The position numbers were made by a program, and so were the translations under genes. 61,328 nt of DNA, from positions 1 through 61,328 of the IMG/VR virus record IMGVR_UViG_3300002161_000007; one strand, written 5' to 3'. Positions 5,406 to 37,996 of the stretch are shown in pieces (position 1 is the first letter of the stretch; each line of letters opens with the position of its first letter). The notes under the pieces were generated by a model. The model had not been told where the DNA came from. It did no database searches and was given only the letters and a program-made list of their open reading frames with translations. The DNA is from a virus.

Positions 5406-6188
5406 ATGGTGGAAATCATGGGCAAACTTGCATGGGATTACATTGTTCCAGTAGTTCTTCCAAAAGACCTTAAAGGTATTGAGCCAGGAAAACTCCCTGC
5501 CAACCTTCTCAAAGCAGTTCCTGGTGGCGGAAAGATGCATTGGATCGCCGCATGCGCATGGACAGCAATGGTTGAAAAAGCCAAGGCTGAAGGCGTTGAA
5601 TTAAAACCGACTTCCAGCGGCGACACATACAGAGATTACGAAAGCCAAAAAAAGGGATTTCTTACTCGCTACACACTTGACAAAGTGGATGGAACCAGCA
5701 CCAAAACCTTTGAAGGTAAGACTTGGTATCTCAAGAAGGGTATGGCGATGTTGGCTACACCTGGTAAATCACAGCATAACCTCGGCTTGGCGGTTGACGT
5801 TCATTCAGCATCAGAGCCAAAGCGTCTCAACTGGCTTATTGCAAACGTTAAAGAGTTTGGTTTTTCATGGGAAGTTGTTCCAAGCGAACCATGGCACTTG
5901 CGTTATGTCTGCGGAGACAATATCCCTGCATCGGTTAAAGCATGGATGGACGCTAACGGCGTAGTTGCCCCAGTAGGTAATGCCCCAGCCGCCGCTCCTG
6001 CCGCAGGCGGAGACGACATCAAGAAACTACAAGAAGCGCTCAAGGCAAAAGGTTTCTACAATGGTGAAATTAACGGTCAAAAAGACTCAGCAACCGACGA
6101 GGCAATCAAGGCTTTTAAAATTGCCAATGGTCTAAAGCCTGACTTCTTCCCTGGTCCAAAAGTAAAAGAACTTTTAGGACTAAAATAA
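5406..6188 (+). CDS. Endolysin: M15 peptidase (VanY-like) with peptidoglycan-binding domain
   Basis: A 260-residue protein. The N-terminal two thirds is a zinc D-Ala-D-Ala carboxypeptidase/endopeptidase of the M15 family, with ligands H124 and D131 in SQHNLGLAVDV and E161/H164 in SEPWHLRY. An Ala/Pro linker near residues 188-200 leads to a PG_binding_1-type domain (IKKLQEALKAKGFYNGEING, then TDEAIKAFKIANGL). It cuts peptide bonds of the host wall at lysis. An ATG at 5418 is an equally possible start. No signal peptide is seen, so a holin is needed for export. Three small membrane proteins in the window are candidates. Confidence 0.85.
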   Translation: MVEIMGKLAWDYIVPVVLPKDLKGIEPGKLPANLLKAVPGGGKMHWIAACAWTAMVEKAKAEGVELKPTSSGDTYRDYESQKKGFLTRYTLDKVDGTSTKTFEGKTWYLKKGMAMLATPGKSQHNLGLAVDVHSASEPKRLNWLIANVKEFGFSWEVVPSEPWHLRYVCGDNIPASVKAWMDANGVVAPVGNAPAAAPAAGGDDIKKLQEALKAKGFYNGEINGQKDSATDEAIKAFKIANGLKPDFFPGPKVKELLGLK

Positions 6189-7519: not shown

Positions 7520-9082
7520 GTGCTCACAGACGACGAACTAGACGAAAACCTCTTAGCGGAGGACATAGCCGAGGAACTGGACGAAACGTCCGCCGAATTC
7601 ATAGACGAATTGGTTAAACGCATTATTGTGTTTACCGAGGAGTTCTGTAATGTGGAATTGTTCCCGTATCAGATTCCTATTGCCTATCGCTTAATTGAAT
7701 CTGTCATCCTTGGTGACGGTGAAGAAATGACGGTAGTTGCCACACGCCAGTCAGGTAAATCGGAAGTGTTGTCTAACGTCATGGCATCACTTATGGTTAT
7801 CTTGCCTAAATTGGCAAGGGTATATCCAACATGGCTAGAAAAGTTTGAAAAGGGATTCTGGTGTGGTGTGTTCGCCCCAGTTGAAGACCAAGCAGATACT
7901 GTATTCAGTCGTATCGTTAGCAAACTAACAAGTGACCACGCAATTGAATTCCTCCTTGATCCAGAGATTGGTGACAAAGCAACATCAGGTGGTTCTCGTG
8001 GTAAGGGTCGCATTATCACCTTGAAGCATTCTGGTTCACTTTGCCGTATGCAGACCTGTAACCCAAAAGCAAAGATTGAATCAAAGACTTATCACTTCGT
8101 GCTCATTGACGAGGCTCAGGAAGCCGACGAGTACATGATTGCCAAATCAATTAAGCCGATGTTGGCGTTTAACAACGGAAGCATTTGCCTAACAGGAACG
8201 GCTACCCGTAACAAGTCTTATTTCTACAAGATGATCCAATACAACAAGCGACGCACCGTCAATGGTGGTCGTAAGTTCCGCCCATGTCACTTTGAGTATG
8301 ACTGGCGAGTCGCCGCCAAGTACAACCCTAACTATGCCAAGTTCATCGCTAAAGAGAAACTGCGTATTGGTGAAGATTCTGACGAGTTCAGAATGTCATA
8401 TGAAAACCACTGGGTGCTGGACAAAGGTATGTTTGTCACCGAAGAGCGCTTAGAGAGGCTCTACGACCCCTCTATGGCCCTTGTAAAGCAATGGTGGAGA
8501 ACACCCGTTGTGGTCGGTATTGACGTTGCCCGCTCTAATGACTCCACCGTAGTGACTGTTTGTTGGGTGGACTGGGATCACCCAGATCCATTCGGCTTCC
8601 ATGAGCACCGTGTCCTCAACTGGTTGGAAATCAACAACGAGGAATGGGAACAGCAGTACTTCCAGATTATTGACTTCTTGCGTAACTATGACCCTCTGAG
8701 AATTGGTATTGACTCTCAGGGTGTTGGTGGCGCTGTAGCCGAGCGTATGCAAATCCTTTTGCCCGATATTGAAGTTATTGCCGTGTCCTCAGACTCTAAG
8801 ACCCAACACGAAAGATGGGTACATCTTACCGAGTTGATTCAGAGAGAACAATTAATAATTCCAGGGCACTCAAAGGCTCGCCGTACTCGTGGATGGAAAC
8901 GCTTTAATCAGCAGATGAATGACCTTGAAAAGATCTACCGTGGTCCATATATGCTGGCGGCTGCTCCTGAGGAAAAAGGCGCTTTTGATGACTATCCAGA
9001 CTCTCTGGCTATTGCTTGCTCTATGACACTACACGATACTTTGCCTCAAATACAGGTGGCAGAAAATCCATTCTTTAAATGA
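7520..9082 (+). CDS. terL: Terminase large subunit
   Basis: A 520-residue DNA-packaging motor. The ATPase half has Walker A at residues 75-81 (TRQSGKS) and Walker B with D197/E198 (VLIDEAQ), followed by a TGTATR coupling motif. The nuclease half has RNase-H-like acidic residues D335 (VGIDVARSND), D398 (IGIDSQGVGG) and D490-494 (FDDYPDS). It docks on the portal, cuts concatemers and pumps DNA into proheads. The start is GTG; the nearby ATG at 7509 is out of frame. A TAGTCT at 7503-7508 could be a -10 box. The first 40 residues are very acidic. Confidence 0.93.
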   Translation: MLTDDELDENLLAEDIAEELDETSAEFIDELVKRIIVFTEEFCNVELFPYQIPIAYRLIESVILGDGEEMTVVATRQSGKSEVLSNVMASLMVILPKLARVYPTWLEKFEKGFWCGVFAPVEDQADTVFSRIVSKLTSDHAIEFLLDPEIGDKATSGGSRGKGRIITLKHSGSLCRMQTCNPKAKIESKTYHFVLIDEAQEADEYMIAKSIKPMLAFNNGSICLTGTATRNKSYFYKMIQYNKRRTVNGGRKFRPCHFEYDWRVAAKYNPNYAKFIAKEKLRIGEDSDEFRMSYENHWVLDKGMFVTEERLERLYDPSMALVKQWWRTPVVVGIDVARSNDSTVVTVCWVDWDHPDPFGFHEHRVLNWLEINNEEWEQQYFQIIDFLRNYDPLRIGIDSQGVGGAVAERMQILLPDIEVIAVSSDSKTQHERWVHLTELIQREQLIIPGHSKARRTRGWKRFNQQMNDLEKIYRGPYMLAAAPEEKGAFDDYPDSLAIACSMTLHDTLPQIQVAENPFFK

Positions 9083-11361: not shown

Positions 11362-12512
11362 GTGAATTAGCAAAAGCATTAACAACAACACCACAAGATA
11401 AGACTAAGTTGCTTGGCAAGTTAGTTGAAATGCTTGAGAGCAAGAACATTGACATCAACGAAATTGGTGACATCAAACGTGTCAAGTTGTACCAAGCAAT
11501 GTCAAAAGACTCAGACGGTGAAGCACATATTCATGATCTCGCCGCAATTCAGTTTTCACCTAAGTGGGAAACTGGTCCAGAGTGGCCTGTTGTACAACAA
11601 GGTCCTGCAATTAAAATGCCAGTACCTAAAGCAAAAGTAAAAAAAGCATCTGAGTTTAAAATATGTGTTGTTGTTCCTGACATTCAGATTGGTTACTACC
11701 GTGGTCGTGATGGCACATTAGAACCAACTCATGATGAGAAGGCACTTGATGTTGCACTCAAGATCATTGAAGAGATGAACCCTGACACAGTCATTTGTGT
11801 TGGTGACAACCTTGACTTCCCTGAGATGGGTAAGTACTTGACATACCCTGCGTATGCACAGACAACGCAAGCATCAATTGATCGTGCAACAGTGTTCTGT
11901 GCACAAATGCGTGCGGCGGCTCCTGATGCAGAAATCGTATGGCTTGCTGGTAACCACGAAGAGCGTATGCCTAAATATCTTTTAGTTAACGCATCAGCCG
12001 CTTATGGTTTGCGTAAGGGAAACACCCCAGAATCATGGCCTGTTTTGAGTGTTCCATACCTCTGTCGTATGGATGACTTCAATGTAATTTACAAGCCAGG
12101 TTATCCAGCATCAGATTATTGGGTCAATGAGAAACTGCGAATCATCCACGGCGATCGTGTTAAGTCCTCAGGATCAACGGCGCACATCTATCTCAACAAT
12201 GAAAAGACAAGCGTTATCTATGGGCATATTCATCGCATTGAAACAGCATTTAAAACACGTGAAGACTTTGATGGTCCACGCACCATCATGGCTGCTTCAC
12301 CTGGTTGTCTTGCTCGGATTGACGGCGCCATACCCAGCACAAAAGGTGGGGTAGATCTTGACGGACGTCCGCTTACTCGCCATGAAAATTGGCAACAAGG
12401 CTTGGGTATTGTTCGTTATGAAGACGATAATCAGCATCGTTTCTCTTACGATGTAATTCCAATTTACAACGGTTGGGGCATGTACCAAGGTAAAGAATAC
12501 CAAGCAGACTAA
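11358..12512 (+). CDS. Calcineurin-like metallophosphoesterase
   Basis: A 384-residue protein starting at ATG 11358 behind AAGGAGG; an upstream in-frame ATG at 11331 is inside the HTH gene. Metal-binding motifs are in order: PDIQIG (D108; Gln110 replaces the usual His), GDNLD (D150), GNHEE (N199, H200), HGD (H264) and GHIH (H290, H292). The family includes Mre11-type nucleases and protein or nucleotide phosphatases. About 100 N-terminal residues are helical and unassigned. The D-x-Q variant is a notable departure. It sits in a packaging/head region, not with replication genes. Confidence 0.85.
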   Translation: MSELAKALTTTPQDKTKLLGKLVEMLESKNIDINEIGDIKRVKLYQAMSKDSDGEAHIHDLAAIQFSPKWETGPEWPVVQQGPAIKMPVPKAKVKKASEFKICVVVPDIQIGYYRGRDGTLEPTHDEKALDVALKIIEEMNPDTVICVGDNLDFPEMGKYLTYPAYAQTTQASIDRATVFCAQMRAAAPDAEIVWLAGNHEERMPKYLLVNASAAYGLRKGNTPESWPVLSVPYLCRMDDFNVIYKPGYPASDYWVNEKLRIIHGDRVKSSGSTAHIYLNNEKTSVIYGHIHRIETAFKTREDFDGPRTIMAASPGCLARIDGAIPSTKGGVDLDGRPLTRHENWQQGLGIVRYEDDNQHRFSYDVIPIYNGWGMYQGKEYQAD

Positions 12513-13171: not shown

Positions 13172-13453
13172 ATGAGTCAATTAAAGACCGCCCATGCAGA
13201 TGCCGCTATTAAAGGTGCCGCCCTCGGTATCCTAACGTTTGCCGCCGCAAAGTACAGCATCTCAACTGAATTGGTTGCATTGCTGTTGCCTTTTGTTGCT
13301 ACTGGTATTTCGCTGGTATCAACCAAAATTGGTCCTGCAAACACCACATTGCTTCTCAAGGTTGCTGAACAAGCAATTGCCGCCGCCCCTGCTAAAGCAG
13401 AACCAGCACCTGTTAAATCCGCAGCAAAGAAAGCCGCTCCAAAAAAGAAGTAA
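13172..13453 (+). CDS. Small membrane protein with Lys/Ala/Pro tail (holin candidate)
   Basis: A 93-residue protein behind AAGGAGA. Residues 10-27 and 31-52 (LVALLLPFVATGISLV) are hydrophobic, giving one or two membrane helices. The C-terminus is a positively charged low-complexity tail (KSAAKKAAPKKK). Small size, membrane helices and a basic tail match many holins. It lies between the protease and portal genes, away from the lysin. Confidence 0.55.
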   Translation: MSQLKTAHADAAIKGAALGILTFAAAKYSISTELVALLLPFVATGISLVSTKIGPANTTLLLKVAEQAIAAAPAKAEPAPVKSAAKKAAPKKK

Positions 13454-36875: not shown

Positions 36876-37145
36876 TTACCACTTAACCTTGTCAGCCCAA
36901 TAAGCGGCAGACATCTTGCCTTTAGAGATGTTCTTAGCGTGACGTGCTTTAAATGAAGCGTTACGTGCAGAACCATCAGGTGAACCTTTAACGCCCTGTT
37001 GACCAAAGCGAATCGTCTTAACTTGATCGCCTTCTTTAGCAACAACAACATGTGACTTGGTTGGGTGATCAGGTGTTGCTTTTGGTTTATTAAAACCAGA
37101 TACACCTGCACGTGTAAGTCGTGGGTCTTTCTTACTCTCAGCCAT
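36876..37145 (-). CDS. Basic conserved phage protein (DUF6321-like), leftward
   Basis: An 89-residue product on the minus strand. It has KKDPRLTRAGVSGFNKPK, then VKTIRFGQQGVKGS, then FKARHAKNISKGKMSAAYWA and ends DKVKW. This pattern is a small basic family common in marine and freshwater phages and matches DUF6321-type proteins. Its start overlaps the stop of the gene upstream (TAATG). It is one of only two leftward genes and converges stop-to-stop with 36054-36875. It probably binds nucleic acid; function is unknown. Confidence 0.8.
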   Translation of the reverse strand: MAESKKDPRLTRAGVSGFNKPKATPDHPTKSHVVVAKEGDQVKTIRFGQQGVKGSPDGSARNASFKARHAKNISKGKMSAAYWADKVKW

Positions 37146-37309
37146 TACTTCTTACCTTTCTTGGAGACAGCCATGTTGTCAACAAGGTTTGGATACGGAC
37201 GACCAGCGGCTTTAGCACGAGCCTTTGCTTCTGACTTCTGGTCAGGTGTCAACTTAGTTGACTTCTTCTTTGGATTGGGTTTGTCCCATACTTCTTTTTT
37301 AGATGCCAT
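37145..37309 (-). CDS. Small basic conserved phage protein, leftward
   Basis: A 54-residue product on the minus strand, from ATG at 37309-37307 to TAA at 37147-37145. It reads MASKKEVWDKPNPKKKSTKL, then TPDQKSEAKARAKAAGRPYP and ends VSKKGKK, a lysine-rich sequence often seen beside DUF6321-like genes. Its stop overlaps the start of the next leftward gene. The candidate promoter TAAACT lies 6 bases before its start. Probably expressed with its partner. Confidence 0.75.
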   Translation of the reverse strand: MASKKEVWDKPNPKKKSTKLTPDQKSEAKARAKAAGRPYPNLVDNMAVSKKGKK

Positions 37310-37315
37310 GGGAAT

Positions 37316-37321
37316 AGTTTA
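37316..37321 (-). promoter_or_regulatory. Candidate leftward leaderless promoter (-10 TAAACT)
   Basis: On the minus strand TAAACT ends at 37316, with six bases before the ATG at 37309. The spacing predicts a start point at the first base of the start codon. The motif and spacing equal those before 20328. No -35 box is clear. Confidence 0.4.
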
Positions 37322-37324
37322 GCG

Positions 37325-37413
37325 GTTGGGAGGAGAGCCATTTAACACGGGCAGGGGAGAAAGGAGGTAAAGCCCCTGCTCTGTCGTCCTGAGGAGGTCG
37401 CTCTCCTCCCAAC
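37325..37413 (+). ncRNA. Candidate structured element: three-way junction
   Basis: Three nested stems fold from this interval. P1 is a perfect 13-bp stem, 37325-37337 with 37401-37413 (GTTGGGAGGAGAG / CTCTCCTCCCAAC). P2 is a 9-bp stem, 37349-37357 with 37373-37381, with one G-T pair and a 15-base loop holding AAAGGAGGT. P3 is 37385-37390 with 37395-37400, with one T-T mismatch and a GAGG loop. It lies between leftward and rightward genes and contains no credible coding sequence. It could be a leader RNA, small RNA, or a DNA structure for replication. Fold is seen; function is inferred. Confidence 0.55.
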
Positions 37414-37467
37414 ACTCTTATTACTTTAACACCCGATCAGGAAGTGTTAAAGCAACGCCGAGAGTGT
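37412..37467 (+). promoter_or_regulatory. Second compound hairpin in the divergent intergenic region
   Basis: Outer arms ACACTCT (37412-37418) and AGAGTGT (37461-37467) enclose inner arms CTTTAACAC (37424-37432) and GTGTTAAAG (37444-37452) with an 11-base loop. An 8-base palindrome GGGCGCCC follows at 37472-37479. The first two bases are shared with P1 of the preceding element. Together these structures fill nearly the whole 200-base gap 37310-37510, which has no gene. A ribosome site (TGAGGAG) lies just before 37511. Confidence 0.5.
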
Positions 37468-37510
37468 AACATGGGCGCCCCGAGAAATGACAACCTGAGG
37501 AGCACAAGAA

Positions 37511-37996
37511 ATGGCAAAGAACAACCGACTGAGTGGCCCCTTTTTACCAGTCCCAAGATGGGTGTTGCCATACATTGCAACTGACTATGTATCCCATGCA
37601 GTACTGAACCACTTCCTTCAGTACCTCCACCCTGATACCCAGGAACTGACGACGTCCTACCAGCACATTGCTGACCAAATGGGTTGTGATCGCCGTACGG
37701 TTATGCGCTCAATAAAACGACTTGAGGAAATTGGTTTGATCGTCAAACAGCACCGTGTCACTAGGTCAAATAAGAACCTGACGAATAGTTACTATGTCAA
37801 TTTTAACAATCCACTAGTGTCACACGAGTCACCCCTAGTGGTGACACTGGAGACACTAGGTAGTGTCACCACAGACACCACTAGTAGTGTCTCCCGTGAC
37901 ACCCAATCAAGAGTATCTATCAAGAGTAAGAAAATCAAGAAGAGGGAAATTTTAACAAAAGTGGATCAGAGGTTGGTGGATGAAGAAACAATTTGA
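37511..37996 (+). CDS. Winged-helix replication initiator-like protein
   Basis: A 161-residue protein. Residues 20-85 form a winged helix-turn-helix (TSYQHIADQMGCDRRTVMRS, IKRLEEIGLIVKQHRVT), the layout of phage initiator proteins and RepA/DnaD-like N-terminal domains. Residues 103-131 are a Ser/Thr/Val low-complexity stretch and 132-150 are Lys-rich. DNA encoding 103-150 holds repeats listed separately. It is first in the replication operon, upstream of helicase loader, helicase and primase. The lambda O protein has the same organisation. Initiator function is inferred from domain and context. Confidence 0.7.
   Translation: MAKNNRLSGPFLPVPRWVLPYIATDYVSHAVLNHFLQYLHPDTQELTTSYQHIADQMGCDRRTVMRSIKRLEEIGLIVKQHRVTRSNKNLTNSYYVNFNNPLVSHESPLVVTLETLGSVTTDTTSSVSRDTQSRVSIKSKKIKKREILTKVDQRLVDEETI
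37755..37940 (+). repeat. Iteron-like repeats and AT-rich direct repeats inside the initiator gene (putative origin)
   Basis: The heptamer GTGTCAC or its complement occurs at 37755-37761, 37817-37823, 37841-37847 (complement), 37863-37869 and 37896-37902 (complement). Shorter GTGTC/GACAC copies lie at 37852-37856, 37874-37878 and 37887-37891. Palindromes include GACACTA-GG-TAGTGTC (37852-37867) and an 18-base imperfect one at 37874-37891. Directly after, ATCAAGAGTA occurs at 37906-37915 and 37919-37928 and ATCAAGA at 37934-37940, in an AT-rich purine-biased run. Protein-binding iterons followed by unwinding repeats is the lambda-type origin layout. Confidence 0.65.

Follow-up and report, generated by a model that had tools for sequence, protein, structure and literature searches.

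A conserved minus-strand RNA beside a phage replication operon as a putative antisense repressor of small early genes and of the replication initiator

C-rich small RNAs of Gram-positive bacteria, of the S. aureus RNAIII and RsaE type, use CU-rich hairpin loops to bind the Shine-Dalgarno sequences of several mRNAs. Plasmid copy-number RNAs of the CopA/CopT type, which are cis-encoded and fully complementary to their target, exert control over a replication initiator by hairpin kissing. Among phage-encoded RNAs, c4 (P1/P7) and sar (P22) each prevent one phage gene from being translated and lambda PreS targets the host dnaN, according to extracts from a 2025 review (PMC12197685), which also credit stem-loop 13 of RNAIII with multiple mRNA targets. 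In these extracts of the review, no phage RNA acting on a set of the phage's own early genes is described (PMC12197685).

The element considered here lies in a 61,328-nt stretch of DNA, the window, which is part of the 75,020-base IMG/VR virus record G000. At 37325-37467 (143 nt) this DNA folds into three helices, P1, P2 and P3, and a second hairpin, a structure pointed out in an initial annotation and confirmed by folding statistics: the energy is -64.9 kcal/mol on the plus strand and -63.0 on the minus strand, the z values are -5.6 and -5.8, respectively, and 0 of 200 shuffled sequences were equally stable. The stability of the fold is far beyond chance on either strand. To its right lies the replication operon, whose first gene, the proposed target, encodes an O-like replication initiator (37511-37996, plus strand; phrog_270, phrog_391, HTH_36); the genes after it are one with no match to any family and those of a DnaC-like loader, a DnaB-like helicase and a primase. 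To its left are two small minus-strand genes (36876-37309). The nearer one (37145-37309; phrog_34011) encodes a small basic protein of 54 aa and is located downstream of the RNA, which does not need it. The other (36876-37145) encodes an 89-aa protein of phrog_7595 (function unknown). Viral contigs contain hundreds of relatives of this protein, which in addition matches part of the minor head / DNA pilot profile phrog_220, and its DNA shows similarity to Roseobacter-type podophages. No tRNA or tmRNA was detected in the window by ARAGORN. Searches of isolated phages and bacterial genomes returned no close homologue of the initiator or of the element, only distant O-like HTH matches.

A search with the initiator retrieved 27 related loci, 21 of which carry the same element, and 14 distinct homologues were aligned on the minus strand (alignment A1). 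Two-sided changes occur in 12 pairs of the structure, and none of 500 shuffles reaches the observed paired percentage or covariation score. P1 (14 bp; 5' arm 37400-37413, 3' arm 37325-37338, on the minus strand like all the RNA features that follow) is paired in 100% of the alignment cells, with two-sided changes in 6 pairs, and P2 (37345-37384; 11 pairs, 37351-37357 with 37373-37379 plus ACA/TGT) is likewise paired in 100% of cells, with such changes in 4. The P3 hairpin CCU-CCUC-AGG (37388-37397), which provides the seed discussed below, does not vary, its ACCUCCUCAGG being identical in 14/14 aligned sequences. The 5' hairpin H2 (CUUUAACAC...GUGUUAAAG; 37424-37452) is kept despite strong sequence change, with 88% of its cells paired. 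In the second, two-tier hairpin proposed initially, the inner hairpin is kept in homologues, but the outer tier is not conserved and overlaps a conserved promoter box; the GGGCGCCC palindrome proposed next to it is not conserved either.

The substitutions also indicate which strand folds. Among the 14 homologues, 33 wobble cells read as G-U on the minus strand versus 1 A-C, and the sole cell that is G-U on the plus strand belongs to hairpin 2, where the alignment is poor. A second lineage (L156, L262-L275, L295) builds different stems around the same loop, with 21 G-U versus 0 A-C, a count that includes one G-U from L152, a member of the first clade. A covariance model scores about 100 bits on the minus strand and at most 27 on the plus strand, and finds a single copy per genome. 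Since the variants read as G-U on the minus strand and as A-C on the plus strand, the folding molecule is the minus strand; judged by these substitutions, P1, P2 and P3 are real structure conserved on it, in the form of a three-way junction. A plus-strand reading, with a perfect Shine-Dalgarno in the loop, is excluded by the same G-U/A-C bias and by the covariance-model scores, so that the ribosome-binding-like loop AAAGGAGGT of the initial annotation turns out to be the complement of the functional strand, whose real loop is an anti-Shine-Dalgarno. A relaxed-pattern search yielded 50 new stretches, none of which matched the covariance model. Two irregular loci were encountered among the relatives. 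L004 (~2820-2903), nearly identical to L003, is without ~25 nt that include the 3' arm of P1, by either an assembly error or a natural deletion. In L256 a closely similar hairpin stands alone at 5959-6025 (minus), reading CGGGCGG-CGAAAGGAGGAAAA-CCGCCCG on the plus strand with TGCTACACT alongside; no initiator relative was matched on this contig.

Covariation and wobble bias point to a small RNA of ~130 nt at 37325-37457, with inferred ends, the 5' end near 37457 and the 3' end near 37325. Its candidate promoter is an extended -10 box, TGTTACACT, at 37463-37471 on the minus strand, the sole TGNTACACT in the window, and a TGNTANANT-like box is found at the same place in nearly all homologues. 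An overlapping -10 on the plus strand (37463-37480) is plausible in the window clade and is not conserved further out; as conservation does not extend to its last base, the minus box alone is accepted, and inspection of 37463-37480 did not locate the initiator's own plus-strand promoter. A search of the minus strand for terminator-like sites found none. Rfam 15 (4227 families) gave no match in the window at gathering scores, and only chance-level ones (E 4.9) in 37200-37600; this includes no match to the c4 antisense family, assuming that c4 is among the 4227 families scanned. The idea of a small RNA of no named class, put forward in the initial annotation, is supported: comparison with RNA family models found no family, and homologues do carry the compensatory changes whose absence would have spoken against it.

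What this RNA could recognize is suggested by P3, whose complement recurs in ribosome-binding sites. According to whole-record gene calls, mostly small minus-strand genes are clustered at 66-75 kb of the record, outside the window, and they are probably early genes, being small and clustered. Their leaders are of the type GACCTGAGGAGGTCAACC-ATG (GACCUGAGGAGGUCAACC-AUG in the mRNA), and they fold as CCU-GAGG-AGG hairpins whose loop contains the Shine-Dalgarno. P3 is exactly complementary to such hairpins, which present the Shine-Dalgarno of ~10 small genes; the record contains 12 copies of CTGAGGAGG, 11 of them on the minus strand in the cluster region and 1 in the element. At least 9 contiguous nt, and up to 12 bp, can be paired with P3 by 12 of the 117 leaders, compared with a mean of 0.72 for shuffled seeds, bearing in mind that CU-rich loops bind any Shine-Dalgarno to some extent. 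In the leader hairpins the outer pair is A-T, G-C or T-A in 37/37 distinct leaders, and the inner pairs include seven U-G and no A-C. The loops GAGG of the mRNA and CCUC of the RNA are complementary, which is a kissing geometry, and the gain from pairing, taken as duplex minus hairpin energies, is very roughly 12-18 kcal/mol. In having its own structure and a loop that complements a ribosome-binding site, the element resembles the antisense RNAs that act at such sites.

Four relatives with the RNA whose genomes were read (G001-G004) have one element each and the same leaders, in which CCTGAGGAGG is present 3-9 times outside the element, and the match of P3 to leaders is seen in them too; contiguous pairing with P3 is interrupted in five G001 leaders, which carry CCTAGAGGAGG. 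The more distant G007-G014 have neither the RNA nor the leaders, except for one stray copy in G011. G005 harbors 14 CCTGAGGAGG leaders without a matching P3 seed, and so the leaders can exist without this small RNA. Other structures were noticed in the cluster region, outside the window (L130, G000:61001-75020). A compact element is repeated upstream of several of the small genes, between neighbours (~7822-7894, 11699-11771, 12087-12152, 13201-13273 and 13629-13701 of L130); it combines a stem CCCCAG/CTGGGG, a short hairpin and a T-arm-like CCCG-TTCAATC-CGGG, resembling a mini-tRNA with no anticodon arm, has no Rfam family and is possibly an RNA-processing site. At 5801-5910 (minus) of L130, ahead of a small gene, lies a long hairpin that Rfam matches to the PyrR binding site below threshold (41.5 bits versus a gathering score of 54).

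P3 also matches the initiator mRNA. The Shine-Dalgarno region of the initiator, CCTGAGGAG (37494-37502, plus strand), is complementary to P3 over 9 bp, the longest complementary run between the RNA and this leader, and CCTGAGGAG, the complement of P3, occurs exactly twice in the window, at P3 and at the initiator leader. The initial annotation had considered a leader of the replication operon; the RNA instead runs away from the operon, to whose ribosome-binding site it is antisense. The counterparts of this RNA in more distant clades use different sequences, each antisense to the phage's own initiator leader: L024 has a 13-nt run inside a longer duplex, L156 pairs over 13 bp with one wobble, L270 and L302 over 11 bp each, and L313 over 11 bp plus 3, while L160 pairs through an apical loop with one mismatch (A-C). 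Changes in seed and target in L268, L270 and L271 are wobble-retaining and compensatory. Whole-leader duplex scores, which allow long internal loops, were statistically uninformative, and 22-nt windows were used instead. Pairing with the own leader was better than cross-family pairing (1 of 20,000 permutations, for families that are related and not fully independent). In L159, L262-265, L275 and L295 no clear seed or pairing with the initiator leader was found. Seed-target complementarity that is retained while the sequence changes is again characteristic of antisense RNAs; plasmid-type copy control in cis does not fit, as the inferred 5' end (~37457) lies outside the initiator leader and the longest run is 9 nt.

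We consider it probable, from sequence comparison, that this is a phage antisense RNA that represses a regulon of early genes, together with the initiator, by kissing their Shine-Dalgarno hairpins. The proposed model is that leftward transcription on the minus strand would start from the extended -10 at 37463-37471, divergent from the replication operon, so that the small RNA would be made once the replication region becomes active. Its CCUC loop would kiss the GAGG loop of the leaders, and this contact would extend into duplexes of 9-12 bp that block ribosome binding. The early small genes would in this way be shut off jointly, and synthesis of the initiator would be limited by negative feedback. 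A wider proposal can be offered only tentatively, namely that the RNA could be an RNA-only early-to-middle switch, which silences the regulon, throttles the initiator and, with a loop that copies the 16S tail, captures strong host Shine-Dalgarno sequences; if true, one RNA would re-programme both phage and host translation.

The loop involved in this wider proposal is that of P2 (37358-37368), an anti-Shine-Dalgarno ACCUCCUUUCU that reads CUUUACCUCCUUUCU on the minus strand and whose core, CCUCCUUUC, is invariant. ACCUCCUUUCU is the sequence at the 3' end of the 16S rRNA in many bacteria. Its full complement, AAAGGAGG, is present in 0-2 phage leaders per record of 83-144 gene calls, and since it is so rare there, the loop may have a host target or mimic the 16S tail. 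The candidate role of a loop aimed at the phage's own genes was dropped, as no leader is specially complementary. The P2 loop may be a second, general loop that binds the Shine-Dalgarno of mRNAs from host or phage, or it may imitate the 16S tail. It could even be argued that the minus-strand RNA acts mainly through P2 as a mimic of the 16S 3' tail, which would capture strong host Shine-Dalgarno sequences (shutting down host translation) or titrate a factor that binds the 16S tail, and that the pairing of P3 and of the initiator is secondary. The retention of the core in two lineages with differing stems, the confinement of P3 to one clade and the rarity of AAAGGAGG in phage leaders agree with such a role. 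However, AAAGGAGG leaders are few in records with a loop-less RNA too, which gives no sign of avoidance, and at least 10 exact matches of P3 to leaders would have no explanation; we regard this reading as unlikely.

It is improbable that the element acts as DNA, as a set of phage-repressor operators or part of the replication origin, in which the CCTGAGGAG sequences would be protein sites and the hairpins would be extruded in single-stranded DNA. The element does adjoin the operon of the O-like initiator and the helicase loader, and the CCTGAGGAG direct repeat flanks the promoter. A hairpin in single-stranded DNA would show a G-T wobble bias too, and for this reason the promoter box is a separate support for an RNA: the extended -10 is conserved exactly at the 5' end. 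Moreover, the matching copies are located at ribosome-binding sites over ~9 kb, where changes keep RNA wobble pairs, and the copy differences of L156 and L313 are wobble-compatible, although that of L160 is an A-C mismatch. The DNA structure for replication or packaging envisaged in the initial annotation is unlikely as well, in view of the promoter box and of the complementarity to Shine-Dalgarno sequences.

A cis-acting leader (riboswitch-like or attenuator) of the two minus genes at 36876-37309 is very improbable and is refuted by relatives, because, even though the RNA points toward these genes with no terminator between, the second lineage, in which the left genes, the 54-aa phrog_34011 gene among them, are missing, keeps the element without minus genes downstream on its strand, between a codirectional upstream gene and the initiator, and because the first left gene has its own -10. 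This box, TAAACT (37316-37321, minus strand), is a separate promoter of leaderless type for the left genes, placed exactly 6 nt ahead of the ATG at 37309, a spacing that is constant among relatives keeping the left gene.

An antisense RNA that represses early genes and the initiator by kissing has partial counterparts in the systems described so far. With RNAIII and RsaE it would share CU-rich loops directed against several Shine-Dalgarno sequences, but those are chromosomal regulators with other folds, whereas this is a phage gene whose seed matches a phage-specific leader hairpin. With CopA/CopT it would share hairpin-to-hairpin kissing and control of an initiator; those RNAs are cis-encoded full complements, in contrast to an RNA that lies beside the initiator, with a 9-nt match to it and many further targets. 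As far as the review extracts go, c4 is also a phage-encoded antisense RNA, with complementary segments in loops, that blocks translation of a phage mRNA by binding around its ribosome-binding site (PMC12197685), although it has one target, ant, in a temperate phage, whereas the present RNA has many matched targets, is divergent from a replication operon and carries an anti-Shine-Dalgarno loop. The sar RNA of P22, an antisense RNA as well, stops translation initiation on a phage mRNA by pairing with it (PMC12197685), but on ant alone, and not through short seeds that match a set of unlinked leaders. PreS is a phage-encoded, trans-acting small RNA tied to replication (PMC12197685), and it is Hfq-dependent and acts on the host dnaN, while the matched targets here are phage genes. 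The RNA family is new, and its proposed multi-target use on early genes would be a new form of a known kind, the antisense small RNA at ribosome-binding sites. The phage antisense RNAs presented in the extracts have one phage gene or host mRNAs as target (PMC12197685); an RNA that matches shared start hairpins of many genes would, if true, mean that an uncultivated phage group shuts off its early genes post-transcriptionally, and the sequence rule that it suggests, a leader hairpin plus a complementary loop, could be used to search for such circuits in other phages.
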